From Bacteroidetes bacterium HGW-Bacteroidetes-5 (GTDB lineage: Bacteria > Bacteroidota > Bacteroidia > Bacteroidales > UBA932), in NCBI GenBank assembly GCA_002842515.1, contig PHDC01000001.1, positions 992,001 through 1,056,000 on the forward strand: DNA of 64,000 nucleotides, written 5' to 3'. Position 1 is the stretch's first letter. Every line of letters starts with the position of its first letter. The notes below the pieces were generated by a model. The model made no database searches. It was not told the DNA's origin and saw only the letters and a list, made by a program, of their open reading frames with translations. The position numbers and the translations under genes were made by a program. Below, piece after piece: positions 2,367 to 38,537 of the stretch.

Positions 2367-5300
2367 TTACTGTGAAAAATAAATTAATTCTGAAGTTGTT
2401 TGATTGTAATTCAAAATATTAGCCAAGTAATCTAACTGAATCTGTATTGCAGTTTCGTAACTGGTTACAAACTGATAAAAGTCTATTTCGCCAAATTGAT
2501 ATGATTTTAATGCGGTTTTCATTATTTCATTCATTAAAGGCTCTCCCGATAATTCAAAATTATCAAGCAAAACTTTGAATTTATGATGATTACTCAATAA
2601 CAAGTTTAACTGATTATTTATTAATGTTAATTCGTTTTCTCTCAATAACCCTTTAGCGTTAGCAGAAAGTTTTGCTGCATTAACTCTGGCTTTTGAACCT
2701 CTATGAAACAAAGGGAGAGCAATACCCACTTGAAATCCGTGGTAATACTTACCATTTTCATATTTATTTGAACCTAAAAAATAGTTCGCGGAAAAATCCG
2801 GCAGCATTTTACTCTTTTCAACCCGAACCAGTGAATGAGAATATTCGTTCTCTTTTTTCAATAAATCAAAAATTGGCAAAGCATTTGGTGTCTCAATAAT
2901 TTCCGGCAAAATCTCTATTGCTATTGGAATAGTAAAATCAGTTTTTTTATTCATCAAAACTTTTAAACGATTATAATCATTATCAATATCAACTTTTAAG
3001 GCGTTTAGTTGAATTGAAATTTGGGTTTTTTTAGCCTTAATATTTAATACTTCGAGCTTATTGATATCTCCTATTTTTGCTCTCTTCTCAGAATTTGCAA
3101 TCAATACATCATAAAGACTATCCAAGGTATAATACAATTTTTGTTTATTCAATAGAAATTGAAAATTGAAATATGAAAAGGCGATATTCTTTTTAAGATT
3201 GTTTTTTTCAATATTCAGATTTGCTTCTGCTATTGAAACCTCAATTTGCCTTGACTTGCTTTCCGCCGAATAGAGTGTAGGAAAGCTAAAACTTTGCTCC
3301 AAGCTCCAAACGTTTAATGGATAACCATTTTCAGCGATATTATTTTGGTCTGTACCATAGCTAAAAATGGTTTTATCGGGAGCAAATGCTGTCTTTTTTA
3401 ACACTTTGCTCTCTTCTACTTTAAGCATATAAGCAGCAATTTGCTTATTATTCTGTAATGCTGTATCGATGGCTTCACTCAATTTCAAACCGGAATTCTG
3501 TCCAAATGAAGAAATTGCAGGTACACCAAGCAGAAATAATGTAATGAGGGTTTTGGAACGAATAAAACGTAATGGAAATAATTTTATCCCTTTGACATTA
3601 TAAAAAATTTCAAAAAGCAAAGGTAAGGCAATCATTGTCAACATAGTAGAAGTAATTAGCCCTCCAATTACTACCGTAGCAAGCGGGCGTTGAACTTCGG
3701 CTCCGGCACCGGTTGAAATAGCCATTGGCAAAAATCCCATTGCGGCAGCTCCTGCAGTGAGCAGTACCGGTCGCAAACGATTTTTTGTTCCGGTGAGTAT
3801 TAATTCACGAATATTTGTCATTCCCTGATGTTGTAACTCCTTCAAATGCTCAATAAGCACAATGCCGTTTAGCACTGCAATACCAAAGAGTGCAATAAAA
3901 CCAATACCTGCAGAGATGCTGAAAGGCATCCCCCTAATCCAAAGCAGAAATACTCCACCAACTGTTGCTAAAGGGATTGCAGTAAAAATCATAATTGCAT
4001 CTTTAAATGACTTGAATGCAAAATGTAGAAAAATAAATATTAAAATTAGAGCAACAGGTACTGCAATCATTAACCGGTTAGACGCATTTTGCAGATTCTC
4101 AAATTGTCCGCCATATTGAATATAATTGCCGGCTTTGAGTTTAATATTTTTATCAATTTTGTGTTGAATATCAACAATAACAGATTGTAAATCGCGGTTT
4201 CGTACATTAACACTTACCACTACCCTGCGATGAGCATTATCGTGCGATATTTTAGCAGGACCTTGGGTGTACTGAATTTCGGCAAGCTCACTTAGGGGTA
4301 TCATTTGACCGGTTGAAACAGGTACCTGAAGTTGACGAATATCGTCAATATCTGTTCTGTATTGGTGATCAAATCGCATCACCATATCAAATCTTTTTTC
4401 ACCCTCGAAAATTACGCCTGCTGTTTTCCCGCCAAACGCTGCAGATAAAAACGTGTTCAAAGTATTAACATCTACACCGTGATAAGCTATTTTACTTCTA
4501 TTGTAATTAACTTTTATTTGGGGCAATCCTGCGGTTTTTTCCATAATTACATCACTTGCACCTGGCACATCTTCAATAAGATTTTTAATCTCAAGCGCTT
4601 TTTGGTTGATGTAGTCGAGGTCTTCACCGAATATTTTAATGGCAATATCTGAACGGACACCTGTGATTAATTCATTAAAACGCATCTCAATGGGTTGTGT
4701 AAATTCGTATTCAACCCCGGGAATTACAGAAAGTGCCTCTTTGAATTTATCGGCTAACTCTTCTTTACTACTAGCAGAAGTCCACAATTTTTTAGGTTTG
4801 AGTTTAATAATCATATCAATCTCTTCCATTGACATAGGGTCTGTAGGTACTTCTGCGGCGCCTATTCTGGAGACAATCTGATCTACTTCTTCGGGAAATT
4901 TTTCTATTAAAATATTCTCCATCTTGGTAGTCATTTCAACGGTTTTAGTGAGGGAGGTTCCTGTTTTTAAAACAGGTTGTATGACAAAGTCTCCCTCATC
5001 AAGTGTTGGTACAAATTCACCACCAATTCGTGTAAACATTAACCCTGTAAGTAATAACGAAACAATAGCTGCACCAAGCACTAAGCGTTTATGACAGCAG
5101 GACCACTTAATTACCGGGGAATACAAATTATGGACCTTGTCCATAATCCAATCTGAAATATTTTTTTTCTTAGTTTTTGCAGGTTTTAAAAAAAGCGCCG
5201 AAGCTACAGGTAGCCAGGTAAGCCCTAATATCATTGCACCAATTATGGCGAAAGAGAAAGACAATGCCATTGGGCGAAACATCTTGCCTTCGACACCACT

Positions 5301-6710
5301 TAATGACAAGATGGGAATGAAAACTATAAGAATAATAACCTGTCCAAAAATAGCCGATTTCATCATTCGTGAAGCACCGGCAATAGAAATATTGTCCATT
5401 AATGTTTGTTGTTCACCATTCTGAGTCATAAGAATGTCCTCTTTTTGTAAGGACATTTTTATTACAATAAATTCAACAATGATAACGGCCCCATCGATGA
5501 TAATACCAAAATCGAGCGCCCCTAGACTCATTAAGTTGGCGTCAATACCAAAAACATACATCATTCCTATTGTGAACAATAATGCCAAGGGTATCATTGA
5601 TGCAATTACCATTGCCGATCGAAAGTTCCCTAAAAGCAAAATAACAATAAGTAATACGATGATAGCGCCAAGGATCAGGTTTTCAACTACTGTGAATGTT
5701 GTTTTGGAAATAAGTTCACTCCTTTCAAGTATAGGATTGATAAAAATACCTTCCGGTAAATTTTTCTGGATTTCGGCTACTCTGGCCTTTACTTCGTTAA
5801 TAACAACTTTTGAATTTGCATTTTTTAACATCATAATCTGACCAAGCACTGTTTCGCCCTTACCATTAGCAGTAATAGCTCCAAAACGGTTAGCATAACC
5901 AAACTTAACTTTTGCCAAATCTTTTACAAAAATTGCCGTTCCCGCACTATTCTTAACCAATATGTTTTCAATATCTTCTAAAGACCTAGCCTGTCCGTCG
6001 CCCCTGATAAAATAACTTTGATTTGTTTTTTCAATATATGACCCCCCCGTTATACTATTATTGTTTTCGAGTGCATCATAAATCTCCATTAAGCTTATAT
6101 TAAGACTTTTAATTCTAGAGGGAGAGATAGAAACTTCGTATTGTTTTAAATATCCACCCCAGCTGTTTATCTCAACTACACCATTTATTCCCGATAAGCG
6201 TCTTTTTATTATCCAGTCTTGAATTGTCCGTAAATCCATAGGGGTATATTTCTCCCTGAATTCTGGTTTTATATCTACAATATATTGGTAAATCTCGCCT
6301 AACCCTGTGGTTATTGGCCCCATTTCCGGTGATCCGTAAGCTTCCGGTATGTTAGCCGATGCCGTTTTTATTTTTTCGGCAATTAGTTGCCTGGGTAAAT
6401 AAGTTCCCATATTTTCGGCAAAAACCACTGTAACAACCGAAATCCCAAATTTTGATATGGAGCGTATCTCTTTAACGCCCGGCAGATTAGCCATCTCCAT
6501 CTCTACAGGCGTAGTAATAAACTGCTCAATCTCCTGGGTAGATAAACTACCTGAGGTGGTGATAACCTGAATCTGATTATTTGTAATATCAGGAACCGCA
6601 CCTACTGGGATATTTAAAACGGCAAAGAGGCCAAATGCGGCAATAGTTAATGTAAATAGAATTACTATCAGTTTATTCTTTACGCTAAAATCAATTATTT
6701 TTTCTAACAT
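2367..6710 (-). CDS. CusA/CzcA-family RND heavy-metal efflux pump fused to a TolC-like domain
   Basis: A proton-driven inner-membrane RND exporter of the heavy-metal subfamily. At 1447 residues it is about 400 longer than a standard CusA. Residues 1 to about 1040 form the pump: first transmembrane helix at 11-32, a periplasmic porter loop starting with PVGAVPDITNNQIQV, central membrane helices (FGIIIDGAVIIVEF carries the conserved acidic relay residue), a second porter loop and a final helix bundle. About residues 1070-1447 are a TolC/CusC-type outer-membrane factor (KLSEAIDTALQNN start, two helical-hairpin repeats). Between them, about 1053-1071, is a hydrophobic stretch ending AISSFGQ that looks like a retained signal peptide. 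Pump-TolC fusions of this size are known in Bacteroidota. Adaptor gene follows immediately. Metal specificity is not determined. Confidence 0.92.
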   Translation of the reverse strand: MLEKIIDFSVKNKLIVILFTLTIAAFGLFAVLNIPVGAVPDITNNQIQVITTSGSLSTQEIEQFITTPVEMEMANLPGVKEIRSISKFGISVVTVVFAENMGTYLPRQLIAEKIKTASANIPEAYGSPEMGPITTGLGEIYQYIVDIKPEFREKYTPMDLRTIQDWIIKRRLSGINGVVEINSWGGYLKQYEVSISPSRIKSLNISLMEIYDALENNNSITGGSYIEKTNQSYFIRGDGQARSLEDIENILVKNSAGTAIFVKDLAKVKFGYANRFGAITANGKGETVLGQIMMLKNANSKVVINEVKARVAEIQKNLPEGIFINPILERSELISKTTFTVVENLILGAIIVLLIVILLLGNFRSAMVIASMIPLALLFTIGMMYVFGIDANLMSLGALDFGIIIDGAVIIVEFIVIKMSLQKEDILMTQNGEQQTLMDNISIAGASRMMKSAIFGQVIILIVFIPILSLSGVEGKMFRPMALSFSFAIIGAMILGLTWLPVASALFLKPAKTKKKNISDWIMDKVHNLYSPVIKWSCCHKRLVLGAAIVSLLLTGLMFTRIGGEFVPTLDEGDFVIQPVLKTGTSLTKTVEMTTKMENILIEKFPEEVDQIVSRIGAAEVPTDPMSMEEIDMIIKLKPKKLWTSASSKEELADKFKEALSVIPGVEYEFTQPIEMRFNELITGVRSDIAIKIFGEDLDYINQKALEIKNLIEDVPGASDVIMEKTAGLPQIKVNYNRSKIAYHGVDVNTLNTFLSAAFGGKTAGVIFEGEKRFDMVMRFDHQYRTDIDDIRQLQVPVSTGQMIPLSELAEIQYTQGPAKISHDNAHRRVVVSVNVRNRDLQSVIVDIQHKIDKNIKLKAGNYIQYGGQFENLQNASNRLMIAVPVALILIFIFLHFAFKSFKDAIMIFTAIPLATVGGVFLLWIRGMPFSISAGIGFIALFGIAVLNGIVLIEHLKELQHQGMTNIRELILTGTKNRLRPVLLTAGAAAMGFLPMAISTGAGAEVQRPLATVVIGGLITSTMLTMIALPLLFEIFYNVKGIKLFPLRFIRSKTLITLFLLGVPAISSFGQNSGLKLSEAIDTALQNNKQIAAYMLKVEESKVLKKTAFAPDKTIFSYGTDQNNIAENGYPLNVWSLEQSFSFPTLYSAESKSRQIEVSIAEANLNIEKNNLKKNIAFSYFNFQFLLNKQKLYYTLDSLYDVLIANSEKRAKIGDINKLEVLNIKAKKTQISIQLNALKVDIDNDYNRLKVLMNKKTDFTIPIAIEILPEIIETPNALPIFDLLKKENEYSHSLVRVEKSKMLPDFSANYFLGSNKYENGKYYHGFQVGIALPLFHRGSKARVNAAKLSANAKGLLRENELTLINNQLNLLLSNHHKFKVLLDNFELSGEPLMNEIMKTALKSYQFGEIDFYQFVTSYETAIQIQLDYLANILNYNQTTSELIYFSQ

Positions 6711-6912
6711 ATCGACATAGTTATATGATTTGAATAAATATACCTAATTAATTTCTTTTATTGGTAAATTTACAAAAAACTCACTTAATAAGAAATAATC
6801 AGATTGTCTAATATTTGGGAATTGATCCGAATTCTTTAGGGAGGGCTAGCTCAAAACTGTTATTATTATAAACAACCGTAAAAAGTAGAAAATATTTACA
6901 AAGTAGGCTTAT

Positions 6913-7506
6913 ATGATTATGCTTAAAAAATCCCTTGAACAGGAATTTTTTGAGAATGCTTTTAATCTACATTATGAGCGGCTAGTGGTATATATCTACC
7001 GTTACTGCAAAGATTGGGGTGCGTCAGAAAATCTGGCTCAGGATACATTCATTACTTTTTGGGGAAATTTATCTAAGGTAGATTTTGACAGAACCCCTCT
7101 ACCCTTTCTTTTAATGGTGGCAAAAAACAAAACTCTCAATTATCTGAACAGAGAAATTGTAAAAACCAAACATAAAACTCATCTGCATAACAGTGAGATG
7201 CTGATATCATCCCGAGCTTTGGAGTGCAGCACACTGGATGATGTACACTTTAGAGAGATTGAACTTATTGTCAATAAGAGTATGTCTGAGATGGCGCCAA
7301 AAACAAAGGAGTTCTTTCAATTGAGCCGATACAGATGTAAGAAAAACGACGAGATTGCCGGAATTATGGGAGTTTCTGTTAAAACCGTAGAGTATAGAAT
7401 TATGTCTGCACTAAGGATTCTTCGCAAAAATCTAAAAGACTATTTCCCGGAATATGTTGGTGAAAACAATAAAGAAGTTAAGAACATTAAAGCAAATCAA
7501 CAATGA
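6913..7506 (+). CDS. ECF RNA polymerase sigma factor (Bacteroidota FecI-like family)
   Basis: A 197-residue extracytoplasmic-function sigma factor. Sigma region 2 is recognisable at roughly residues 15-85 (FNLHYERLVVYIYRYC ... LAQDTFITFW) and region 4 at roughly 125-185, with the helix-turn-helix NDEIAGIMGVSVKTVEYRI. The next gene, an anti-sigma factor, overlaps it by the ATGA at 7503-7506, so the two are translationally coupled. In this family the sigma factor drives the adjacent SusC/SusD genes when the outer-membrane receptor signals through the anti-sigma factor. A second in-frame ATG at 6919 is an equally possible start. Confidence 0.93.
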   Translation: MIMLKKSLEQEFFENAFNLHYERLVVYIYRYCKDWGASENLAQDTFITFWGNLSKVDFDRTPLPFLLMVAKNKTLNYLNREIVKTKHKTHLHNSEMLISSRALECSTLDDVHFREIELIVNKSMSEMAPKTKEFFQLSRYRCKKNDEIAGIMGVSVKTVEYRIMSALRILRKNLKDYFPEYVGENNKEVKNIKANQQ

Positions 7507-8585
7507 ACAAGAGATTACTAATCAGGAATATAGTTGGTGAAACTACAGAAAGTGAGAGACTGGAAGTGAAAGAATGGATATCTGAATGTAAGAATAATGA
7601 ATCCTATTATATAGATTTAATGAACCTTATTATTTCTCAGGACTTACTTAAAGAGAATTACAACTCAATTTCCGGAGAGGAGTTAAAAGAGAGGATGCTA
7701 GTAGTAAAAGAAAAAATAAGGATTAAGGAGGAACAAACAGTAATAACTTCTTATCCCCAAGAAAAAAATAACGGCATAAGATTTTATCTAGCTGTGGCTG
7801 TTGCAGCCTCTACTCTTTTATTTGTATCTGTTTTAATTAATATTTATCAGTTCAGTTCAAAGGAGGAGAGTGTCAAAAATACATCTCTGGCATTTGTGTC
7901 TAAAACAGATGTTATAAACACTTTTTATACTGAGAGGGGAGTTAAAGGTAAAATTGTGCTGGCAGACAGTACGATTGTATGGCTTAACTCAGATTCAAGA
8001 ATTATATATCCGGAACACTTTGCAGATGACTCCCGGGAGATAAAATTTGAAGGAGAAGGGTTTTTTGAGGTAAAAAAGAGTAGTGAACGGCCGATGATAG
8101 TCACCACTTCAAAGGGTATGTCAGTCAAAGTTCTGGGCACCAAATTCCATATCCGTTCTTACAACAATGATGAAACAGAACAAGCTACACTTTTTTCGGG
8201 CAAGATACAATTGGCGAAGGTGGTTAAAGGAGAGGGCGGCAATATGGAACAGCGGATAATTGAGATGATTCCTAATGAGGTGGTTATATTCGACAAAAGC
8301 GGCGTTCAATCAATTAATCACAATGCCGATACCACCAAGAAAGTTGCCTGGAAAAAAGGTGAACTCCTTTTTGAAGAGACACCTATGAGCGAGGTATTGA
8401 AGATGCTGGAGAGATGGCACGGAGCAAAAATTATTGTAACAGATAACTCTGTCCTGAGGTATCGCTTTACAGGATCATTTAACTCTGAGTCTCTGGTTCA
8501 GATACTGGAACTTATTAAGTTCACCTCACCGGTAGATTATAATATTATTGATAATAAAGTCTATTTGAAAGTAAGAAAAATTTAA
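7503..8585 (+). CDS. FecR-family anti-sigma factor
   Basis: A 360-residue single-span inner-membrane regulator. The cytoplasmic N-terminal about 90 residues bind the sigma factor; a hydrophobic helix lies at about 93-113 (FYLAVAVAASTLLFVSVLIN). The periplasmic part contains the FecR core (GVKGKIVLADSTIVWLNSDS, then EGEGFFEVKKS and VLGTKFHIRSYNNDE) and a C-terminal STN-like segment (FEETPMSEVLKMLERWHGAKI) typical of Bacteroidota FecR proteins. It should pass a signal from the N-terminal extension of the SusC protein encoded 57 nt downstream to the sigma factor encoded upstream. Confidence 0.93.
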   Translation: MNKRLLIRNIVGETTESERLEVKEWISECKNNESYYIDLMNLIISQDLLKENYNSISGEELKERMLVVKEKIRIKEEQTVITSYPQEKNNGIRFYLAVAVAASTLLFVSVLINIYQFSSKEESVKNTSLAFVSKTDVINTFYTERGVKGKIVLADSTIVWLNSDSRIIYPEHFADDSREIKFEGEGFFEVKKSSERPMIVTTSKGMSVKVLGTKFHIRSYNNDETEQATLFSGKIQLAKVVKGEGGNMEQRIIEMIPNEVVIFDKSGVQSINHNADTTKKVAWKKGELLFEETPMSEVLKMLERWHGAKIIVTDNSVLRYRFTGSFNSESLVQILELIKFTSPVDYNIIDNKVYLKVRKI

Positions 8586-8642
8586 AATTTAGGGATGCAC
8601 CACCACTAACTTGTTATAGTTATAAAACCTAATTTTTAACTT

Positions 8643-11600
8643 ATGAATAAAAAACTTAATTGTGTACTAACAAAACATAGGCTACTTTATGTTTTGTTTT
8701 TTTGTTTATTCTCGCTGGGCGTGGCCGCACAAAGTAACATTACACTTGATATGACGAACAAGCCCCTCAAAGAGGTACTGGCTGCCATTACACAAGCTAC
8801 AGAGTATAAATTTGTCTACTCCGATGTTCTTAAGGAGATTAATGAGCCTGTAACTATTAAATGCATTAACCAGAACCTGACTTCTGTTCTTAACCAGCTA
8901 TTTGGTGACAAGAAAATTATTTATAGGATAGAGGGAAAAAATATAGCTCTATCTCCTGCAACACTTTCACCAGTGGTATCCCAGGAAAAATTATTATTGG
9001 TAAAGGGTGTGGTTTCGGATGAGGCAGGAGACCCTATCCCCGGAGTGTCCATTAGGAACAGGAGCAGCAACAAATTCGTTTCGAGCGATCTTAAAGGAAA
9101 TTTCCAGATTGAAGCAAAGGAGGGAGATGCTCTTATTTTTTCTTCAATAGGAATGGAGACCAAAGAGGTTAAGGTGGGAAAGAGTAGCAACCTAAATATA
9201 ACTCTTACCACAAGTATTACCTTTTTGGAAAATGTAGTGGTAACTGGATATCAGGGGATACCTAAAGAGAGAGTCACAGGTTCAATTTCATCTGTCTCCT
9301 CAAAAAAGATAGAGGAGCGTTACACCACAAATATTTTGAACAACCTAGAGGGTCGGGTAGCGGGATTGAGTACATATGGAGGCAAAACCACCATTCGTGG
9401 AACAAGCTCTCTATATGCAGAGACAAATCCTTTGCTTGTAATAGACGGAATGCCTGTTGAGGGCAAAATGCAGGATATTAACCCCTATGATGTAGAAAGT
9501 ATTAACGTTCTGAAAGATGCTGCTTCAACGGCTATTTACGGGGCGCGTGCATCAAACGGTATAATCGTAATCACAACAAAAAACGCACGTAAAAAAGGTA
9601 AAATTGATATAGATTTCTCTACCAATCTCTCTGTTTTTGAGAAAAAGAATTTGGATTATGCCGATAACTTTTATATGAATGCCGGGCAACAGGTTAAAGT
9701 AGAATCTGATTATTATGAATACTATTTCTTCAACAATAACGGTGAAATTTCAAATCCTATAGCTGCAACCGAGTCACATATTGAGGGTGGTACAAACGGC
9801 ATATCTCCCATTCATTATGCATATTATCAACTTGCTACCAATAAGATTACCCGCGATCAGCTAAATAACGTTCTGAATGGTTTAAAGAAAAACAATTTTG
9901 CAAAGGAATATGGAGAAGCAATTTACAAACGTCAGGTCAGGCAGCAATATAACCTATCTTTACGCAACAACTCCGAGAAATTTCAAAGCAACCTAATTTT
10001 TAACTATAGAACAGATAATAACGGAATTATTAACGGGGGACAGAACCAATTAAACATCAGTTATAAAGGAGTTTATGAGGTAGCTCCTTGGCTAACTGCA
10101 ACTTTTGGAATTAACGGGATTTACAACAAAGCCAAAGAGGCCGGTTATGACGTGAATTCAAACCACACTAATATATGGGCACATCCTGCATATGAAACTC
10201 TTTATAAAAGTGATGGTTCTATAAAGCCATATTACTATTGGTACAACGGTAACCAATACTGGAGCAGCAAGAGTGAAGAGGGTCTTTATGATCTAGGTGT
10301 AAACATTATAAATGAATTCTATAACAACATCCAATCCACAGACCGTCAGAATACACGTTACCACGGTAATCTGCTTTTCAAATTATTTAAGGGTCTCACA
10401 ACAAATATCCAATACATATATGAAAATGAGCATGCTACAACTAAATGGCATGCCAATACAGAGAGCCACGTTGCGCGTTCTATAAGAAATGCTTATACCA
10501 CTCTTGAAGACGGTAAGATAACATATCTCACCCCACGCACAGGGGGCATGTTACGAACTACAAATACCGATGGCAGTTACTGGACAGCACGGGGTCAGAT
10601 TGACTATTCCAACACTTTTGGGAAACATACTGTGACTGCCCTTGCAGGTCTGGAGTTTAGACAGACAAAGCAAAATGGTACAAAATCACTTGTTTTAGGT
10701 TACGATGAACAGTTACAAAATAGCTCCACACAAACAATTGACTTTGGATCGCTTAGTCAATTAACGTTAGCTCCCTATTATATGTTAGGCACATACCCTG
10801 CAAATCAATTCGTATTCAATCCATATTTCCGTGACGGAATGGGAATCATATTAGAACAGTTTCACCGTTATGGATCGGGATATGCAAACTTTACATATAC
10901 ATATGATGAAAAGTATAATCTATTTGGCTCTTTACGTAAAGATTATGCCGATGTTTACGGTCTTAATTCAAAATTTCGCGGGAAACCACTTTGGTCAGTT
11001 GGAGTAGGATGGAATATTCACAATGAATCATTCGCAAAAAATATAAGTTGGATAAACTTCTTAAAGTTGCGTGCAAGCTATGGTGTAACAGGTAATATTT
11101 ATCAGGGAGCTACTAGCTATATGACTGCAAGTTCTACAAATTTTAACCAATATACAAATCAACCGTATAGTGAAGTTGAAAGTCCCGCAAACCCTAATCT
11201 GAAGTGGGAGCAGAGTAGAACTACAAACATAGGAGTTGATTACTCTCTTGCAGATAATCGTTTACGTGGAACAATTGATCTGTACAATAAAGTGGGAAAA
11301 GATATTTTTTCGAATAAAACTCTTGACCCAACGACTGGTTTTACCTCTATGTTTGCAAATATTGCAAGTATGCATAACAAAGGAGTTGAGATAACAGTTA
11401 ATTACGATTGGTTCCGTGAATTAAAACCGGGCAGCTTTAGCTGGACAACTGGTTTGACCTTCTCTTACAATCAGAACAAGGTAACAGATGTTGAAAACGC
11501 TTCTACAAATGCTGTAGAACTAATAGATAATCCATATCGTATAGGTTACCCAACAAGCGCCCTATGGTCATGGCGTTTTGCCGGAATCAGTGATGAGGCC

Positions 11601-12170
11601 GGGCAAAAAGGTCAGACATTATGGTACATTGAAGATGATGTTAAATCTACGAATGCTCAAAACAGAGGTATTAGTATAATGGAGTATTCAGGACAAAGCG
11701 AACCAAAGATTGTTTCAGGAATTGAGAATCGCTTTACATGGAAAGGATTCAGTTTGAATATAATGATGGCATATTACGGAGGACACAAAATGCGTGCACT
11801 TTCAGAGCTTGAAACATCAGGCGTACAATATTCAACAATTGCAAGCTATTTTATCAATGCATGGACCCCTGAAAACCCTACTAATACTCCTGGAATTGGA
11901 CGTTATGGGTCTACTGATAGTGGTTGGGAACCAAGATATTCAGATATTTCAGTAAGAGATGCGGCATTTCTTAAAGTTCGAAATATTGTTATCGGATATG
12001 ATTTACCTGAGAAATGGTATAAAGGAACAGGAATTAACAGACTAAGCCTTCGTTTCCAGATAGATAATCCAAAATATTTCTGGCTAAAGAACGATGTAAG
12101 CGTCGATCCGGAAACCCTTGGTATACGGAATCCAAGCTCATACATCTTTGGTGTAAATATTAACTTATAA
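8643..12170 (+). CDS. SusC/RagA-type TonB-dependent transporter with STN signalling domain
   Basis: A 1175-residue outer-membrane importer. Order of parts: signal peptide to about residue 30 (ending VAAQS); STN (secretin/TonB N-terminal) domain about 35-95 that signals to the FecR protein; carboxypeptidase-D-like repeat about 118-200 (VKGVVSDEAGDPIPGVSIRN); plug domain with VVTGYQGIPKERVTGSIS, LLVIDGMPVEG and the very conserved NVLKDAASTAIYGARASNG; then a large beta-barrel ending in an aromatic-rich strand (YIFGVNINL). The STN domain together with the upstream sigma/anti-sigma pair marks this as a self-regulated transducer. No glycoside hydrolase, peptidase or haem gene is next to it, so the substrate is unknown. 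Confidence 0.95.
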   Translation: MNKKLNCVLTKHRLLYVLFFCLFSLGVAAQSNITLDMTNKPLKEVLAAITQATEYKFVYSDVLKEINEPVTIKCINQNLTSVLNQLFGDKKIIYRIEGKNIALSPATLSPVVSQEKLLLVKGVVSDEAGDPIPGVSIRNRSSNKFVSSDLKGNFQIEAKEGDALIFSSIGMETKEVKVGKSSNLNITLTTSITFLENVVVTGYQGIPKERVTGSISSVSSKKIEERYTTNILNNLEGRVAGLSTYGGKTTIRGTSSLYAETNPLLVIDGMPVEGKMQDINPYDVESINVLKDAASTAIYGARASNGIIVITTKNARKKGKIDIDFSTNLSVFEKKNLDYADNFYMNAGQQVKVESDYYEYYFFNNNGEISNPIAATESHIEGGTNGISPIHYAYYQLATNKITRDQLNNVLNGLKKNNFAKEYGEAIYKRQVRQQYNLSLRNNSEKFQSNLIFNYRTDNNGIINGGQNQLNISYKGVYEVAPWLTATFGINGIYNKAKEAGYDVNSNHTNIWAHPAYETLYKSDGSIKPYYYWYNGNQYWSSKSEEGLYDLGVNIINEFYNNIQSTDRQNTRYHGNLLFKLFKGLTTNIQYIYENEHATTKWHANTESHVARSIRNAYTTLEDGKITYLTPRTGGMLRTTNTDGSYWTARGQIDYSNTFGKHTVTALAGLEFRQTKQNGTKSLVLGYDEQLQNSSTQTIDFGSLSQLTLAPYYMLGTYPANQFVFNPYFRDGMGIILEQFHRYGSGYANFTYTYDEKYNLFGSLRKDYADVYGLNSKFRGKPLWSVGVGWNIHNESFAKNISWINFLKLRASYGVTGNIYQGATSYMTASSTNFNQYTNQPYSEVESPANPNLKWEQSRTTNIGVDYSLADNRLRGTIDLYNKVGKDIFSNKTLDPTTGFTSMFANIASMHNKGVEITVNYDWFRELKPGSFSWTTGLTFSYNQNKVTDVENASTNAVELIDNPYRIGYPTSALWSWRFAGISDEAGQKGQTLWYIEDDVKSTNAQNRGISIMEYSGQSEPKIVSGIENRFTWKGFSLNIMMAYYGGHKMRALSELETSGVQYSTIASYFINAWTPENPTNTPGIGRYGSTDSGWEPRYSDISVRDAAFLKVRNIVIGYDLPEKWYKGTGINRLSLRFQIDNPKYFWLKNDVSVDPETLGIRNPSSYIFGVNINL

Positions 12171-12171
12171 A

Positions 12172-13626
12172 ATGGACAGAAAAATGAAAAAAGTTATATA
12201 CAGCCTCCTTGCAGGAGCAATTTTACTCACCGTTTCGTGTTCAAAATTTACCGATATTGAACCAAAAGGGAAAAATTTACTTAGTACAACCGATCAACTT
12301 GAGATGCTTCTCAATAAAATATTTATGATGAACGACGATGATATGCGTTGGATGTCTGGTGACGTAATAAGAACATTCCAAAATATACCAACGCTTTTAA
12401 GTAATCCCAACAAGACCCGCCCTGCAATTATTTACTCGTGGGATGAGACAAACATTGATAAAATGGCCGAACTAACAGCTTATGATTATACTTATGAGAC
12501 CGGATATGTGAATATCGGACAAATTGCAAACGCTATTCTTTCACGGGTTGATGATGCTTCCGGCCCCGAATCTGTAAAAAATCAGTTAAAATGCGAAGCA
12601 TTAGTACTACGTGCCTATTACCATTACATATTGGTTAATAAATTTGCAAAGGCTTACAATCCGGCAACTGCCGCAACAGATCCTGCCATACCTTATGTAA
12701 CCGAAAATTGGGATATAAGTATTCCAACCGAAAAAGCAACAGTTAAAGAGGTTTATGACAATATTATCAAAGATGTTGATAAAGCAATTCAGCTGAATGC
12801 TTTACCGGTTGTTGCTGTAAACCGGATGAGGATGAGTAAACCCTGTACATTTGCAGTAAAAGCTCTGGCTTTGATAAGTATGCAAAAGTTTGATGAGGCT
12901 TCAGATGCTGCAAAACAGTCACTTGCAATAACCAATGTTGTAAACAATTATAATCAAATGCTAACAACCTATAAGGGTAACATTCTTGGAAATACATACA
13001 ATGTTATATTGCGTCCTTTGTTAAAGTGTGAAGAGGACCTCTTTACAACTTTTGGAATGGAGTTGATGAATGCCATAACAACTGAAGCCTGGAATGCATT
13101 TGAAACGGGACATGCCAGTCGAGACAAGATGACTTCTGACCGAATGATGTATGACTATATTATAGGATTAGGTAACATATTATTAGGTCTTGATTATACT
13201 TTTACTTACGATATCAGTTCAGGATGGAATGGTGGTGGGTTTAAAACGACTCAAATGTACCTAATTGTTGCAGAGGCAGAAATTCGTAAAAATAACTTTA
13301 CTGCGGCAATGGAGGCATTGGACGCTATCAGAATTAAAAGAATTGATCCTTCAATTTATGCCCCACTAAAGGGAGTAATAAATAATAAGGCCGAAGCAAT
13401 AATCAGATTAAAACAGACCTCTCATGGAGAAAATTTGTATTCCTGCCACAACTTCATTAACAAAAAAAGATGGAATCAGTTGGATGATTATAAACAGACG
13501 CTAACAAAAACAATAAGTGGGAAAACTTATGAATTAAAACCAGATTCCAAACTGTGGATTTTTCCACTACCGGCAAATGCAGTTAATTTAAACCCAAATC
13601 TGCTTCCACAAAATTACAAGAAATAG
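12172..13626 (+). CDS. SusD/RagB-family outer-membrane nutrient-binding lipoprotein
   Basis: A 484-residue surface lipoprotein that forms the lid over the SusC channel. The signal peptide has the lipobox LTVSC (preceded by LLAGAILL), followed by the SusD-typical FTDIEPKGKNLLSTTDQLEMLLN. TPR-like segments occur around KNQLKCEALVLRAYYHYILVN and in the last third (MYLIVAEAEIRKNNFTAAMEALDAIR), and the C-terminus has LWIFPLPANAVNLNPNL as in many family members. It begins 2 nt after the SusC stop. The ATG at 12184 (MKKVIYS) is an alternative and more usual start. Ligand unknown. Confidence 0.93.
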   Translation: MDRKMKKVIYSLLAGAILLTVSCSKFTDIEPKGKNLLSTTDQLEMLLNKIFMMNDDDMRWMSGDVIRTFQNIPTLLSNPNKTRPAIIYSWDETNIDKMAELTAYDYTYETGYVNIGQIANAILSRVDDASGPESVKNQLKCEALVLRAYYHYILVNKFAKAYNPATAATDPAIPYVTENWDISIPTEKATVKEVYDNIIKDVDKAIQLNALPVVAVNRMRMSKPCTFAVKALALISMQKFDEASDAAKQSLAITNVVNNYNQMLTTYKGNILGNTYNVILRPLLKCEEDLFTTFGMELMNAITTEAWNAFETGHASRDKMTSDRMMYDYIIGLGNILLGLDYTFTYDISSGWNGGGFKTTQMYLIVAEAEIRKNNFTAAMEALDAIRIKRIDPSIYAPLKGVINNKAEAIIRLKQTSHGENLYSCHNFINKKRWNQLDDYKQTLTKTISGKTYELKPDSKLWIFPLPANAVNLNPNLLPQNYKK

Positions 13627-13650
13627 CATATTAGTGAATTATTAATAACT

Positions 13651-13676
13651 GAGGCTGATTATTTTTTATCAGCCTC
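13651..13676 (+). other. Hairpin between susD-like and tlpA-like genes
   Basis: A perfect 9-bp stem GAGGCTGAT (13651-13659) / ATCAGCCTC (13668-13676) with an 8-nt T-rich loop. No T tract follows, so it is not a standard terminator. It could reduce read-through into, or stabilise mRNA upstream of, the thioredoxin-like gene. Confidence 0.5.
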
Positions 13677-13692
13677 TACTTTCAATGTTAAT

Positions 13693-14811
13693 ATGAATAA
13701 TTTGGGAAAATGCTTTTTAACGCCATTAATCGTATGTTTTACCTCATTTAGTTTCGGACAAATATCTGCCATAACACTTAAAATTGGTGATTTGGCTCCC
13801 GAAGTCAAGGTTTCGTGGTTAAAAGGCACTCCGGTTGAGAGTTTCAAAAACGACAAGATTTATGTAGTGGAATTCTGGGCTACTTGGTGCGGTCCCTGCA
13901 AGGCTGCGATGCCCCATCTATCTGAACTGGCTAAAAGATACGAGGGGAAGGTTACTTTTATTGGAGTAGATGTTTGGGAAAAAGGATTTGAATCAAAATC
14001 TTACGATTCTTATACCCCAATGTTAAATGAGTTTATCGCAAGTATGGGCGAGAAGATGGCTTATAATGTTGCGATGGACAATAACGACCTGCATATGGCC
14101 AACAATTGGATGAAGGCATCTTGGCAGGAAGGTATACCGGCCACATTTCTTGTTAAAGAGGGTAAGATAATATGGATAGGGCACCCCATAAAACTTGACA
14201 AAACTCTTGAGGAGGTATTTGCCGGAACTTACGACATGAAGAGATACGCAAAAGCTTTTTATGACGAGATAAGCGAAATGGAAAATAAAATTGCTCCATT
14301 AATTATTTTAAACAAAACAGTAGCAGATGCAGTCGCTTCTAAAGATTTTTCAAAAGCGCTTAACGCTATTGATAACGCAATTGTTACAGTTGATACAGTT
14401 TTCAAGTTTCCATTTTACCTATTGAAGTTTACAACCTGCCTCAAATACGATGTTTCCCAGGCGCTCGCATTTGCGAAAGGATGGAGTAAGGAAAATCCTT
14501 CAGTCAAGTTAGTTTTAGCAAATGAGATAACGAAGAGGGATAAACTTCCGAAGGAGGCATATCAGCATGCCATCGAGTCTTATACTGAGGCCTTGTCAGC
14601 ACCTGGTTCTTTAAAACCAATGATTTACCATCTTCTTGCACAGTGTTTCTTTAAGATGAACGATCTGGCAAATGCCATTGCTAACGAAGAGGAGGCAATA
14701 GAGGCAGGCAATGCAGCCATTGCAAGTGGAGAGTTTCAGGGAACAATAAATACCGGCACAATTAAGGAGTATCAGGAGGCCTTGACAAAATACAGAGCTC
14801 TACAAAAATAA
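13693..14811 (+). CDS. TlpA/ResA-like thioredoxin-fold protein with long C-terminal helical domain
   Basis: A 372-residue exported redox protein. The signal peptide runs to about residue 24 (ending FSFGQ). The thioredoxin-like domain spans about 30-190 and carries the active site WCGPC, with Cys66 and Cys69, and a cis-Pro region at EGIPATFLV. The remaining about 180 residues are helical and TPR-like (SALNAIDNAIVTVDTVF ... AIANEEEAIEAGNAA). Proteins of this build often sit in SusC/SusD loci; the role is thought to be disulfide chemistry in the periplasm, but the client is not known. It is the last gene before a strong terminator, 66 nt after the SusD gene. Confidence 0.88.
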   Translation: MNNLGKCFLTPLIVCFTSFSFGQISAITLKIGDLAPEVKVSWLKGTPVESFKNDKIYVVEFWATWCGPCKAAMPHLSELAKRYEGKVTFIGVDVWEKGFESKSYDSYTPMLNEFIASMGEKMAYNVAMDNNDLHMANNWMKASWQEGIPATFLVKEGKIIWIGHPIKLDKTLEEVFAGTYDMKRYAKAFYDEISEMENKIAPLIILNKTVADAVASKDFSKALNAIDNAIVTVDTVFKFPFYLLKFTTCLKYDVSQALAFAKGWSKENPSVKLVLANEITKRDKLPKEAYQHAIESYTEALSAPGSLKPMIYHLLAQCFFKMNDLANAIANEEEAIEAGNAAIASGEFQGTINTGTIKEYQEALTKYRALQK

Positions 14812-14857: not shown

Positions 14858-14892
14858 AACCCTCAAAAGTTAGCTAAACTTTTGAGGGTTTT
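14858..14892. terminator. Bidirectional terminator between tlpA-like gene and alpha/beta hydrolase
   Basis: A perfect 14-bp stem AACCCTCAAAAGTT (14858-14871) / AACTTTTGAGGGTT (14877-14890) with a 5-nt loop, running into TTTT on the plus strand and preceded by A-containing sequence for the minus strand. It separates two convergent genes and is one of the strongest hairpins in the window. Confidence 0.85.
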
Positions 14893-28842: not shown

Positions 28843-30207
28843 ATGCAAATAGAGAAACTCATAATAAAAGGACTTTACGGTTATATCGACAAGGAAATCA
28901 ACTTCTTTAAGGACCTTACTCTGCTTGTTGGAATAAATGGCTCTGGTAAGACAAGTATTTTAAATATTCTTAATTGGATTATAAAGCCCTCAATACCTAA
29001 CTTATGTGTAACAGAATTTACTTCAATTGAGCTTTTTTTTAAGCTAAAGGGAGTAAGTTATCATATTGTATGCAAACATAATAAGGCAACATTTAAATAT
29101 GTAGTATTAAGTGAAAAAGAAAAATACCACCCTTTAAGTGTCAGAATAAAAACTGCTCCTAAAGAAATAAAAAACGATGATGTTTTAAAAATTAACTTAT
29201 TTCAATCATATTCAGCCTTATTACCAGATGAAAAAGAAAAAAAAACATGGAACTTAATATCCACTTTTCCTAATCCAACAATCATTGGACTTGACAGAAA
29301 TTTATACACAGAGGAATCTGAAAGAATTTATATTGAAGAATCACTAAGAGGTAAGATATATAAAAAGCAAAGTGGGCCAATTATATCGCCATTGGACAGA
29401 GTAAAAGAAATTGTAAATAGAGAATATCGAAAGAGAAAGAATTTAGTATTAAATTTAACTAATAATTTAAAAAATCATCTAATGCTTTCGACATTTGAAG
29501 GAGGAATTACTTTAGAATCCTTCACAGCTGGAATTCGTCAAAAACTAAATCTAGCCCAAATTGAAATTGCAGAAAAAAGAGTAAAAGAATATTTTCTCAA
29601 ATTTGAATCCAAATTATTTTCTACTTCAGAACAAGATTCTATCACAAAATTCTTTACACATCTTAAAGAAATAACGTTACAATATCAAAAAAATCCGCAT
29701 GATGACCGAGTTAAACTATTATATGGATTAAATGCAAGCCAATTTCTAAAAGTCAATAAACTATTAAAAGAATTTGTAAAATTTGATACTGATTCATCTA
29801 GGGTACTAGAAGGTATAAATCAATATATTGTTACACTTAACTATTTCTTGAAAGATTCTGCAAAACAACTAATTTTTAATGAAGAAACATCTGAACTTTC
29901 TTTTAACACATTAGACCGTCAAGGGAATGTTATAACAGAATTTAAAGACATAAAATTTCTTTCATCTGGGGAGCAGCAAATATTAATTTTATTTTCATAT
30001 ATAGCATTTAACAGTGATGACGGCCGCATATTCATTATTGACGAACCCGAACTTTCTCTTCATATAAAGTGGCAAGAGGACTTTCTTGATAATTTAGAAA
30101 AGATAACCCCAAAATCCACACAATTAATACTAGCGACACATTCCCCGATTTTGGCAGGTAAGAAGAAAGAAAAGGCTAAAGTTTTATTACCTTATAATGT
30201 AAATTAA
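28843..30207 (+). CDS. AAA/ABC-type ATPase of a two-gene defence system (PARIS AriA-like)
   Basis: A 454-residue SMC/ABC-like ATPase. Walker A GINGSGKT is at residues 30-37, the ABC signature LSSGEQQ at 373-379, Walker B IFIIDEPELSLH with Asp400 and Glu401, and the switch His433 in LATHSP. The middle is a helical/coiled insert. ATPases of this build next to a DUF4435 protein are the A component of PARIS (phage anti-restriction-induced system) and relatives, where the ATPase holds the nuclease inactive until a phage anti-restriction protein is met. The next gene, 1 nt away, is a DUF4435 protein and a restriction-modification gene lies 5 kb downstream, both consistent. The specific PARIS assignment is inference; ATPase identity is firm. 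Confidence 0.8.
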   Translation: MQIEKLIIKGLYGYIDKEINFFKDLTLLVGINGSGKTSILNILNWIIKPSIPNLCVTEFTSIELFFKLKGVSYHIVCKHNKATFKYVVLSEKEKYHPLSVRIKTAPKEIKNDDVLKINLFQSYSALLPDEKEKKTWNLISTFPNPTIIGLDRNLYTEESERIYIEESLRGKIYKKQSGPIISPLDRVKEIVNREYRKRKNLVLNLTNNLKNHLMLSTFEGGITLESFTAGIRQKLNLAQIEIAEKRVKEYFLKFESKLFSTSEQDSITKFFTHLKEITLQYQKNPHDDRVKLLYGLNASQFLKVNKLLKEFVKFDTDSSRVLEGINQYIVTLNYFLKDSAKQLIFNEETSELSFNTLDRQGNVITEFKDIKFLSSGEQQILILFSYIAFNSDDGRIFIIDEPELSLHIKWQEDFLDNLEKITPKSTQLILATHSPILAGKKKEKAKVLLPYNVN

Positions 30208-30208
30208 T

Positions 30209-31063
30209 ATGGAGTTTGGGTTTCCTGAAATTACAGATTCTTTTTTAAGAGGGCAAAATATCGTTTATACACAATTCAACGATGTAGAATTCTATGTTGA
30301 AGACGTTAAACAAGAAAATTTCTATTTCGAAATTTTAAAAAAATTATTTCCTGACATAAAATTTGAAAAAATATTCCCGTTAGGTGGCAAGCCAAATGTG
30401 TTTACTGATGCTGCTTTAAATCTCGGAAATAAAAAGAAAGTTTATATAGTAGACCTTGATTTTGATGAAATTCTAAATATTAGAAATACTGCAACTAATA
30501 TTTTTTATTTAGAAAAGTATAGCATTGAAAATTATTTGCTTGACTTTGATGCAATTAAAAAAATAATAATAGAACAAAGACCTAAAATTAAACATCATGA
30601 AATTGAAAATACATTTGATATCAATTCATTCTTCGTTGAATGTCATTCGCTTTTTTCAGATCTAATTTGCTATTACATTACTATACAAAAACATGAATTA
30701 GGTATTGAAAACGTTAACTGTGATGCCGCACGGTTTTGTAGCTTTAATACTATACCAGCAACATTAAAAATAGAACAAGTAAATCAATATCGTCAACAAA
30801 TTGAAGGTTCACTAAGAATAAAAAGTTCAAAACTAAAATTAAATGCTCAACTTAAGACATTCAAAAAATATTTACGGAATGTTTCTAATTCTCTTAACAA
30901 TATTCCAGGCAAGTATATTTTGAACTTTCTAAAATATAGAATTGAACATCTTTTTAGTTTATCCCAAATGACACTTGAATCATTTACTTACAGACTTGCA
31001 AGAAATTGTGAATTTAAAGAACTGGCTTTTTTAAAACAACGTGTAACTAGTTATATCGAATGA
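30209..31063 (+). CDS. DUF4435 (TOPRIM-like) effector, PARIS AriB-like
   Basis: A 284-residue DUF4435 protein. The TOPRIM-type acidic residues are visible: Glu31 in FYVEDVKQE and the DxD motif in VYIVDLDFDE (Asp82, Asp84), followed by the family segment FYLEKYSIENYLLD. DUF4435 proteins are the B component of PARIS, where the freed TOPRIM nuclease cuts host tRNA and stops phage growth. It directly follows the ATPase gene, and its stop codon overlaps a 33-codon frame by ATGA. Base composition is strongly AT-rich, as in the rest of the island. It could also belong to a related, undescribed ATPase-TOPRIM pair. Confidence 0.78.
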   Translation: MEFGFPEITDSFLRGQNIVYTQFNDVEFYVEDVKQENFYFEILKKLFPDIKFEKIFPLGGKPNVFTDAALNLGNKKKVYIVDLDFDEILNIRNTATNIFYLEKYSIENYLLDFDAIKKIIIEQRPKIKHHEIENTFDINSFFVECHSLFSDLICYYITIQKHELGIENVNCDAARFCSFNTIPATLKIEQVNQYRQQIEGSLRIKSSKLKLNAQLKTFKKYLRNVSNSLNNIPGKYILNFLKYRIEHLFSLSQMTLESFTYRLARNCEFKELAFLKQRVTSYIE

Positions 31064-31161
31064 GAAAAGCAACCGATAAAAGCGACTACAAAAAAATGGC
31101 AATTCAGTGGTTAAATGAAATTTTGTCTTTTGTATCAAGTTCTTTGTTAGCAGACATTTAA
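31060..31161 (+). CDS. Possible 33-residue ORF overlapping the DUF4435 gene (or gene remnant)
   Basis: ATG at 31060 overlaps the DUF4435 stop as ATGA and opens a 33-codon frame (MRKATDKSDYKK... ending SSSLLADI). The coupling makes translation plausible. The first residues recall the start of GNAT acetyltransferases, so it may equally be the remnant of a decayed gene. The following 72 nt to the next gene hold nothing I recognise. Confidence 0.3.
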   Translation: MRKATDKSDYKKMAIQWLNEILSFVSSSLLADI

Positions 31162-31233
31162 TTGCTTCGAAATCGTCAACTGTTTGTAGCTGTGAAACGT
31201 TTACAATGCTAAAAAGACCTATTTAACTAACAT

Positions 31234-32424
31234 ATGAATATGATTTATACTGACTTTTCGGCAAAAGAACCATCTCTGGGTTACATCTATCAGATAAAGT
31301 ATGCATTATTATTATTATTAACTAATGCCCGCGAACTTAATAAACCAAAATTACGAATCGAAAACTTAGACGATGTTGAAATTGAAGATATTAATTCATT
31401 AAATTTATATCAGACCAAACTTCATATAAAAAATAAGGCTAATCTGACTGATGCAAGTGTGGACTTTTGGAAAACAATCAGAATTTGGTCAGAGCATATT
31501 ACAAAAGGATTGATTGACATTGATTCGACAATATTTAATTTAATTACAACAGAAAATGTACCCGAAACAAGTTTATTGCACAAATTTGTTGAAAATAATT
31601 ATTCCGAAAAAGAAATAGATGAAATAGTTAAGAACCTAGACTTAATAACTGAAAACTCAGACAATCAAACTAACAAAAAGGCATACAAAGAATTTCAGAA
31701 ACTTTCTCTTGAAACAAAAAAGAAAATTGTAAAAAATATTCGAATAATTGATAACACGATAAGTATTGAGGATATTGATAGTAAAATTAAGAAACAGCTT
31801 ATTCTATCATCTTACCCAGACCATTTAGATGCTTTTCTCGAAATATTAGATGGTTGGTGGTTAAAGAAAGCTATAGAGAATTTGCTATCAAAGAGCGACT
31901 ACATTAATGCAGAGGAACTTCTGCTTAAAATAGCAAATATCAGAGATTCGTTCAACTCAGATAATTTGCCTAACCACTTCCCAGAGCCATTGGAGATTAA
32001 TGACGAGGATGTAGATGTTCTTAAAGAAAAAAAATTCCTCAAACAGCTTGAAATTATTCAAGTTAACATCAATTCAAGAGCGGTTAAAAGAGCTATTAGT
32101 GATTTTAGAAGAGCTTTTGAACAAAGGTCAAAATGGCTCAGACTTCATTTATTAAATCCTGAAGAAGAAGAAGAATACGATAAAAAGCTTCAAGATTACT
32201 GGCGAAATATTTTTGAAATTCTATGTGATGAAGCAGAAGATAAAAGTCAGGAAGAATTAATCGCTTTAGGAAAAAGTTTTTATATTGACAAATTTGCAAA
32301 AAATTGTCCGCAAATTAAGATTAGAGAAAAATTTAATGAAGACTTTCTAACTCGTGGTAGCTATCAAATGCTCTCAGATATAAAAAAAGTAGGTTGGCAT
32401 CCAAATTATAAAGACAAAATATGA
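31234..32424 (+). CDS. ABC-three-component system effector-type protein (Cap4-like nuclease domain)
   Basis: A 396-residue protein, first gene of a three-gene set. The N-terminal about 90 residues follow the pattern of Cap4/DUF4297-type PD-(D/E)xK nucleases: SLGYIYQIKYALLLLL, then Glu43 and Asp46/Asp47 (IENLDDVEIED) and the QxK motif QTK at 60-62, followed by DFWKTIRIWSEH. The rest is helical and charged and matches the C-terminal part of proteins annotated as ABC-three component system. In the published computational description of ABC-3C systems this gene carries the toxic enzymatic domain. Its 3' end overlaps the next gene by ATGA. Nuclease activity is a prediction from the motif pattern. 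Confidence 0.7.
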   Translation: MNMIYTDFSAKEPSLGYIYQIKYALLLLLTNARELNKPKLRIENLDDVEIEDINSLNLYQTKLHIKNKANLTDASVDFWKTIRIWSEHITKGLIDIDSTIFNLITTENVPETSLLHKFVENNYSEKEIDEIVKNLDLITENSDNQTNKKAYKEFQKLSLETKKKIVKNIRIIDNTISIEDIDSKIKKQLILSSYPDHLDAFLEILDGWWLKKAIENLLSKSDYINAEELLLKIANIRDSFNSDNLPNHFPEPLEINDEDVDVLKEKKFLKQLEIIQVNINSRAVKRAISDFRRAFEQRSKWLRLHLLNPEEEEEYDKKLQDYWRNIFEILCDEAEDKSQEELIALGKSFYIDKFAKNCPQIKIREKFNEDFLTRGSYQMLSDIKKVGWHPNYKDKI

Positions 32425-32915: not shown

Positions 32916-32918
32916 ATT

Positions 32919-38536: not shown

Positions 38537-38537
38537 A

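Follow-up and report, generated by a model that had tools for sequence, protein, structure and literature searches.

The five genes between positions 6913 and 14811 of the window (the whole 64,000-nucleotide stretch of DNA analysed here) belong to a recurring class of importers, in which a FecR-linked SusCD pair is accompanied by a thioredoxin-like gene, and do not form a singular arrangement. The reading we favour, tentatively and at slightly below an even chance, is that of a cell-surface-signalling SusCD importer of the FecIRA type, with a thiol-redox partner that acts on an imported peptide or small protein. SusCD systems are usually taken as sugar importers, and a locus devoid of enzymes tends to be filed as "substrate unknown"; by recurrently combining SusCD with thiol-redox proteins, the present class gives a concrete way into non-glycan cargo, since its promoter element makes the regulon searchable and one solved relative binds a protein. 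The class is also a natural setting in which to ask whether outer-membrane import is coupled to disulfide reduction. The literature searched, a limited collection, yielded no paper dealing with DsbD and SusD together, and among the matches listed none had SusCD with thioredoxin as its subject; a TlpA and SusD genes are given separately in the excerpts of PMC10434189.

Gene organization and regulation

The preliminary description had recognised a sigma/anti-sigma pair, an STN-bearing SusC, a SusD and a TlpA-like protein, and all five genes are confirmed on the forward strand, as are the features described with them. The first gene (6913–7506) encodes a FecI-like ECF sigma factor (TIGR02985, 128.7 bits, cut-off 126.4) and shares a four-base overlap with the gene of a FecR-like anti-sigma factor (7503–8585; Pfam FecR and FecR_C). 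The SusC/RagA-family TonB-dependent transporter (8643–12170) matches TIGR04056 with 562 bits (cut-off 368) and a second curated family, TIGR04057, with 57.6 bits. Its STN signalling domain (residues 55–106, positions 8805–8960) scores 21.8 bits, below the Pfam cut-off of 28.4, and is accepted because the SusC N-terminus aligns with the N-termini of orthologues over this region. Directly 3′ of susC lies the gene of a predicted SusD-like lipoprotein (12172–13626; SusD-like_3, E 1.8e-21), which has the SusD fold and whose Cys23 shows no variation across 15 aligned sequences. A SusC above its curated cut-off with SusD directly next to it characterises the locus as a SusCD importer, while the ECF sigma factor, the FecR with its C-terminal domain and the sub-threshold STN on the transporter supply the FecIRA components.

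The last gene (13693–14811) encodes a thioredoxin-like protein that matches Thioredoxin and AhpC-TSA, both above their cut-offs. Its WCGPC active site (13885–13899) has W, both C and P identical in six of six aligned sequences, and the predicted thioredoxin fold with CxxC assigns it to the TlpA/ResA type. A putative N-terminal signal-like stretch is visible by eye only, and the C-terminal region is weakly TPR-like. Profile scanning of the five genes recovered no hydrolase, peptidase or metal gene, in agreement with what had been noted before; with no glycan-active enzyme among them, the locus is not a polysaccharide utilization locus. The terminator placed 3′ of the TlpA-like gene corresponds to a hairpin followed by TTTT at 14858–14890 (−19 kcal/mol, z −5.4). 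It was not listed by the consensus terminator scan, which requires five T and whose sites are no more numerous than in shuffles (6 vs 5.2). A further hairpin (13651–13676), located in the gap that separates susD from the thioredoxin gene, is a possible attenuator or processing site.

Matches of the generic sigma-70 promoter scan are no more numerous than in shuffles (30 vs 27.7). A bipartite candidate promoter element occurs twice in the window, against 0.02 copies expected: as TTTAGGGA-N15-TGTTA 5′ of the sigma gene (P1, 6835–6862) and as TTTAGGGA-N16-TGTTA 5′ of susC (P2, 8588–8616). The genome-wide search for the promoter of the sigma factor, proposed earlier, brings the exact copies to three, the single one outside the locus being within ilvD. 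Reversed versions of the pattern, used as a control, occur about as often as the element itself (8 vs 10 in five genomes), so the argument rests on position and not on number. In both G017 and G004 the element is also found upstream of the sigma gene and of susC, and in G004 it additionally precedes an unlinked thioredoxin orthologue (C43:43542–43569, 196 bases 5′ of the start codon, gene from 43766), a site that took no part in motif derivation. G010 has no copy, and its sigma factor is a different one; G018 also has none, but its contig starts inside susC, which makes it uninformative.

The barrels of G004 and G010 are nearly equal in identity to that of the window (77 and 75%), in contrast to their STN domains (78 vs 36%), FecR proteins (69 vs 41%) and sigma factors (74 vs 38%). 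Among relatives, STN identity thus tracks FecR and sigma rather than the barrel, a sequence pattern that supports cassette exchange, with STN, FecR and sigma covarying apart from the barrel. Taken with the promoter element shared by the sigma gene and susC, this covariation supports the self-regulation suggested in the preliminary description.

Signalling from an STN domain to FecR and on to sigma release is general knowledge for this family. Through its STN domain, SusC would report its state to the inner-membrane protein FecR, which would then free the sigma factor; either STN binding or STN release may be the trigger (PMC11637429). The sigma factor would read its own promoter twice, before sigma-fecR and before susC-susD-trx, in a putative positive loop for which the motif is observed and sigma action inferred. 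The resemblance to FecI, FecR and FecA lies in the ECF sigma factor, the FecR anti-sigma factor, the STN-bearing TonB-dependent transporter and a candidate promoter for the sigma factor 5′ of the gene that encodes the transporter. The window transporter differs in being a SusC with a SusD lid, and the window sigma gene seems to carry the promoter element of susC too, whereas FecI is not known to control fecIR in E. coli.

Redox partners in this genome and in orthologous loci

The genome contains 27 SusC, 16 in FecR-linked SusCD clusters and 11 without FecR. A thioredoxin-like gene is present in 13 of the former and 2 of the latter (30 additional cluster proteins were scanned, confirming the remaining thioredoxin genes), and the FecR-linked cluster with a thioredoxin-like gene is the commonest SusCD cluster kind (13 of the 27 SusC). 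Hydrolases are absent from the scanned genes of 11 of these 13 clusters, and the degradative genes scanned in the 13 are exclusively peptidases, namely C11 (L218) and trypsin-PDZ (L228). In L099, a FecR-linked cluster of the same SusD clade, three thioredoxin-like proteins accompany a DsbD_TM-thioredoxin protein, which is, judging from its domains, the membrane part of such a redox relay.

Fourteen loci with SusD at least 35% identical and readable context were treated as orthologous. The cluster includes a thioredoxin-like or DsbD_N gene in 11 of them, and no redox gene in three (G017, the closest, L105 and L108). L102, whose contig ends inside susD, is outside the count, as are L114–L125 and the too distant L110–L112 (SusD 24–28%), in each of which a thioredoxin-like gene follows susD. 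A DsbD_N protein of ~640 aa is part of the set in 8 of the 14 loci; it is absent from the window locus, and a paralogue adjoins another SusCD pair of this genome. It combines an N-terminal CxC with a C-terminal Pfam DsbD_N domain (8 of 8), and all 12 aligned sequences retain its four conserved cysteines, a count that excludes five loci (L128–L132) missed by the extraction filter. The N-terminal region receives no Pfam name at E up to 5 and appears ThuA-like by eye only. Because the mean pLDDT of the protein model is 58.8, better in the C-terminal part, the model was used for the C-terminal domain alone, whose fold matches are 3pfu, 1jpe and 6c29, ScsB being among them. The likeness to the nDsbD of DsbD/ScsB is therefore confined to the C-terminal domain, which in the relatives is joined to the Pfam-unmatched, CxC-bearing region. 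In these relatives the protein would belong to the set as a second redox component.

A more specific reading, possible but doubtful, is that the window locus represents a slimmed-down form of an importer class that recurs in Bacteroidales and neighbours the protein-binding ButCD lineage. Disulfide-bearing peptides or small proteins would there be taken up and opened by a dedicated periplasmic relay, consisting of the double-dithiol DsbD_N protein (CxC and C-x4-C), the thioredoxin-like proteins and, in one cluster, the DsbD_TM part. On this reading, the nutrient importer would have a disulfide-reducing line as well as a sigma factor of its own.

Solved relatives and the probable cargo

By both profiles the nearest solved pair is the SusCD complex ButCD (PDB 8ypt, 8ypu; reportedly published by Tong in 2024), whose structure was determined together with the ubiquitin-like BfUbb (SusD E 1.9e-48, SusC E 1.6e-109); ButD is also the top fold match of the SusD model. 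The window SusD is 19–27% identical to ButD or its homologues (19% by fold alignment, 23% by BLAST), and in the tree its group stands beside the ButD homologues as a separate neighbouring group (93/99). Within five genes of the ButCD homologues there is no match to the FecR, sigma or thioredoxin seeds of the locus (18 of the 20 loci could be read; in L208 and L209 ButD was not called at the threshold used). Their gene neighbours also differ: a protein of ~860–900 aa, a Met-zincin in L195 where scanned, adjoins 16 of the 18 homologues (one cut at the contig end). WCxxC matches of 126 aa (L192) and 484 aa (L206) beside ButCD homologues, with no seed match, were left uncounted. Orthology to ButCD was rejected on identity, gene neighbours and the separate tree group, and since the pair is distant and its homologues lack these matches, its cargo is not transferable to the window pair. 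Excerpts of PMC12853789 and PMC5705921 contain nothing on a BfUbb receptor.

Further solved matches are RagA (2.3e-81), RagB (1.8e-16) and BT_2264 (2.1e-43). RagAB is a SusCD importer with oligopeptide ligands (PMC7782687) and BT2261-2264 a peptide-bound SusCD complex (PMC11817032); both are importers of the same kind as the window pair but match it more weakly than ButCD, and the excerpts of both papers mention no redox partner. L226 encodes a DUF4843 and a PKD_2 lipoprotein, for which a PDB link to the BT2261-2264 complex was tried and rejected, neither having matched.

The preliminary description had proposed a peptide, thiol compound or metal complex rather than a glycan. The pair has no close homology to a glycan-importing pair, its nearest solved relative being itself distant. 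A non-glycan cargo is tentatively favoured, which may be a peptide or a thiol compound; nothing positive emerged for metal. Peptide-like cargo appears more likely than sugars, thiol- or disulfide-bearing peptides being the best reading. The cargo would be bound under the SusD lid and drawn through SusC with TonB energy. In the periplasm the WCGPC protein would most likely reduce cysteines or disulfides of the imported oligopeptide or small protein. General peptidases would then finish the reduced cargo, which we propose as the reason for the absence of an enzyme in the locus. The genome encodes five S46 dipeptidyl-peptidases; the immediate neighbours of the window locus are not peptidases.

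It is unlikely that the locus imports a glycan, with enzymes encoded elsewhere and the thioredoxin-like protein keeping those distant periplasmic enzymes folded. Most SusCD pairs characterised so far do import glycans, sigma/FecR systems control glycan loci as well, and among solved SusC structures the dextran transporter 8aa4 ranks second by profile and first when the single sequence is used. Against this, the levan SusD is a much weaker match (~2e-10) than ButD, and no glycosidase is found among the scanned genes of the 13 FecR- and thioredoxin-linked clusters. Moreover, neither FecR nor thioredoxin accompanies the three scanned SusCD clusters of this genome in which glycan enzymes are encoded, namely GH20 alongside an amidohydrolase, GHL10 alongside a GlcNAc-2-epimerase family protein, and chondroitinase B alongside an alginate-lyase/heparinase-like protein.

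Similarly improbable, and a little more so, is a thioredoxin-like protein that serves the machine itself, keeping SusC, SusD or FecR reduced or signalling periplasmic redox state to the sigma system. The element before the unlinked thioredoxin gene of G004 agrees with such a role, and the SusCD pairs followed by a thioredoxin gene come from more than one SusD lineage, as expected of a general helper. The low cysteine content of SusC (0.3%) and SusD (1.0%) nevertheless leaves little to reduce, and the association of thioredoxin with FecR-linked clusters disfavours a general SusCD need, although a need of FecR would produce the same pattern.

Import of a metal such as copper, or of a metallophore, with the thiols handling the metal, is very unlikely. 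In its favour, classical FecIRA systems import iron, ScsB is among the fold matches of DsbD_N, the paired cysteines of the DsbD_N protein could bind metal, SCO1/SenC is also matched by two of the thioredoxin-like proteins encoded in other SusCD clusters, and a CusA/CzcA pump is the divergent neighbour. Against it, SusC, SusD and the thioredoxin contain few Cys and His residues (judged without a reference set), inspection by eye together with seed BLAST brought up no metal gene in the scanned part of the orthologous clusters, and the ligands of the named solved SusC relatives are glycans, peptides or a small protein.

The divergent gene (2367–6710) encodes a CusA/CzcA-type efflux pump that carries a fused outer-membrane-factor domain. 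Because no such pump was noticed by eye next to the orthologous loci, its adjacency was taken as chance and a functional link was dropped. Past the terminator hairpin, two alpha/beta hydrolases are encoded on the opposite strand.

Organization and control of the locus

The locus comprises five genes on the + strand, encoding an ECF sigma factor (6913-7506), FecR (7503-8585), SusC (8643-12170), SusD (12172-13626) and a thioredoxin-like protein (13693-14811), and is followed by a terminator hairpin (14858-14890). As the preliminary description stated, no degradative gene lies inside it. The last two genes, susD and the thioredoxin gene, are separated by a strong hairpin of 9 pairs (13651-13676), which may lower expression of the thioredoxin gene. 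The product of the latter carries WCGPC, and its C-terminal region resembles TPR only weakly (best E 0.0011, below cut-off). The window spans positions 992001-1056000 of contig C1. The host genome, G000 (2.8 Mb, completeness 92.85%), has as its nearest named relative found the metagenome-assembled Bacteroidetes bacterium GWF2_40_14, with a SusD 88% identical to that of the window. The set is flanked by a convergent alpha/beta hydrolase and a divergent CusA/CzcA-type efflux pump; the latter is an RND pump fused to an outer-membrane-factor (OEP) domain in a single 1447-aa frame (2367-6710), beside an adaptor-like gene (1241-2353). A low-GC stretch of the window (28843-39317) contains matches to the defence proteins AriA/AriB (PARIS-like) and LmuA/LmuB (Lamassu) and to a type IIG restriction-methylation enzyme. 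In addition, the halves of DitA are matched by two separate ORFs.

Comparison of the sequences upstream of sigma and susC in the window and in two related genomes, G017 and G004, yielded the element TTTAGGGA, followed by 15 or 16 bases and TGTTA. It occurs twice in the window, ahead of sigma at 6835-6862 and ahead of susC at 8588-8616, where 0.02 occurrences would be expected. Since the pattern was built from these sites, their presence is no independent test; the independent evidence comes from searching five genomes. The only further exact copy in G000 lies within ilvD. G017 has only its two sites, G010 and G018 have no copies, and G004 has its two sites, two antisense copies inside other reading frames and one at C43:43542-43569. 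This last copy, 196 bases ahead of the start codon of the G004 thioredoxin orthologue (54% identical to that of the window), has a different susD on its other side; consequently, the thioredoxin gene, where unlinked, seems to be preceded by the same control element. Total matches (10 vs 8 for the reversed control pattern) are not clearly above background, and the argument is therefore carried by position.

The SusC barrels of G004 and G010 are equally distant from that of the window (76.6% and 75.3% identity), but the signalling parts are not: identities are 78.0 vs 35.8% for STN, 68.8 vs 40.5% for FecR and 74.1 vs 38.4% for sigma, G010 having another sigma factor and lacking the element. Across eight loci, identities correlate at r = 0.97 for STN-FecR and 0.89 for barrel-FecR, values that are descriptive because the loci are related by descent. 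Judged from these sequences, STN, FecR and sigma look to have been swapped together as a single unit, which is what a joint function would lead one to expect. Together with the paired element, this makes regulation of the locus, described earlier as self-regulated, well supported.

Recurrence of thiol-redox genes with SusCD

G000 encodes 27 SusC proteins above the curated cut-off. With clusters taken as same-strand genes separated by gaps <450 bases, and FecR detected by BLAST to the window FecR, 16 clusters contain FecR, and 13 of these a Pfam-confirmed thioredoxin-like gene, compared with 2 of the 11 FecR-less clusters (C1:923192, C2:300810; Fisher p = 0.002, the paralogues not being independent). 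Far from being exceptional, the arrangement of the window locus is thus the most frequent one in this genome. The three remaining FecR clusters are C1:1154854; C2:222038, where a thioredoxin-like gene lies on the same strand outside the cluster, past an opposite-strand sigma gene; and C2:241467, which includes a Met-zincin.

Most further genes of the 13 clusters were scanned, and encode lipoprotein-like DUF4843, PKD_2, DUF4465 and Fib_succ_major proteins, FG-GAP repeats, additional thioredoxin-like proteins, regulators and unknowns. Peptidases occur in two clusters (clostripain C11 in L218, trypsin-PDZ in L228), and no glycosidase was found among the scanned genes. Three FecR-less clusters in which no thioredoxin gene was found carry glycan enzymes: GH20 with an amidohydrolase, GHL10 with a GlcNAc-2-epimerase family protein, and chondroitinase B with an alginate-lyase/heparinase-like protein. 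In one FecR-linked SusCD cluster on contig C1 of G000 (L099, 5677-18126), three thioredoxin-like proteins accompany a DsbD_TM-thioredoxin protein, a type of protein that would supply a redox set like this with electrons.

A second redox partner is a 640-660 aa protein near susD in G018, G010 and G004, with a C-terminal DsbD_N domain (Pfam) that matches nDsbD structures; the window locus has no such member. Among 149 family genomes, 60 gave matches, mostly to the DsbD_N part alone; full-length matches occur at 13 places in 11 genomes, the query's own counted. At the 11 such places with a locus, a SusD-like stretch lies within 1.5 kb in 8 (in L133 by the ButD seed only) and a TlpA-like stretch in 9 (not L127 or L136). 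At L128-L132 the nearby SusD is 51-58% identical to that of the window, and upstream of the DsbD_N gene in G000 and G017 the same cluster includes a SusCD pair. Exactly four columns of the 12 aligned proteins are at least 70% cysteine, and all four are invariant, within DW[YF]CxC and [YW]QxCxxxxC. Contig C2 of G000 has a second redox-rich SusCD locus (L166, 3462-15445): it encodes sigma and FecR, SusC preceded by a thioredoxin-like protein, then SusD, a DUF4465 protein and an FG-GAP protein, as well as a DsbD_N protein in which all four cysteines are present.

A thioredoxin-like or DsbD_N gene is present in 11 of 14 orthologous loci (SusD at least 35% identical, readable context: window, G017, G018, G010, G004, L101, L103-L109, L113; L102 dropped; L104, L106 and L109 being close kin), the DsbD_N gene in 8 of these 11. 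The clusters of G017, L105 and L108 have neither; L105 has an 837-aa WCxxC frame upstream on the other strand.

Relatives of the transporter and nature of the cargo

A profile of 15 SusD sequences matched ButD (8ypt_A), from a pair solved with the ubiquitin-like BfUbb, over its full length at 1.9e-48, ahead of 3mcx (6.4e-30), RagB (1.8e-16) and levan SusD (about 2e-10). The SusC profile (11 sequences) gave ButC (1.6e-109), followed by 8aa4 (6.2e-96), described as a dextran SusC (PMC7618045), levan SusC (2.1e-88), RagA (2.3e-81) and BT_2264 (2.1e-43). The predicted SusD model (pLDDT 86) also has ButD as its best fold match (E 9.5e-18), at only 19% identity. A single-sequence SusC search placed 8aa4 first (3.1e-74 vs 1e-64). 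No close homology to a glycan-importing pair of known substrate emerged from these comparisons, the dextran transporter being the second-best solved match of SusC by profile.

In a tree of 51 SusD proteins, from which PDB SusD proteins are absent, the window SusD falls in a 12-row group (support 100/100) nested in a 20-row group (93/96), whose six G000 members all have thioredoxin genes, and which adjoins 10 ButD homologues (93/99 for 30 rows); the two deeper supports are below the tool's 95/80 mark. The SusD proteins of L226, L230, L211 and L225 in G000 form a separate lineage with the same redox habit, SusC-SusD being followed by DUF4843, PKD_2 and thioredoxin-like proteins. No FecR, sigma or thioredoxin seed match lies within five genes of the ButD homologues (18 readable loci of 20), and ButCD is thus a relative of the window pair rather than a member of the same class. 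A protein of ~860-900 aa lies near SusC in 16 of the 18 readable ButCD-homologue loci (L191-L207, L210; one cut at a contig end); that of L195, the sole one scanned, is a DUF5117/DUF4953 Met-zincin.

Collectively, these findings favour a peptide-like, cysteine-bearing cargo, because thiol-redox genes recur with SusCD pairs of this type, the nearest solved pair binds protein, peptidases are the only degradative genes seen in the sister clusters, and five S46 dipeptidyl-peptidases are encoded in G000 (a count for this one genome). BfUbb is reported to have a C-terminal cysteine and to have bound human E1 covalently in the absence of reducing agent (PMC3352274); this indicates only that the ligand of a relative can bear a reactive cysteine. 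The earlier suggestion of a non-glycan cargo is favoured to this extent, with peptide and thiol compound both candidates. Two observations weigh against a peptide-like, cysteine-bearing cargo: the dextran SusC is a close solved relative, and in G017, the closest orthologue, SusCD has no linked redox gene, although the G017 pair is surrounded by M16, S46 and M3 peptidases.
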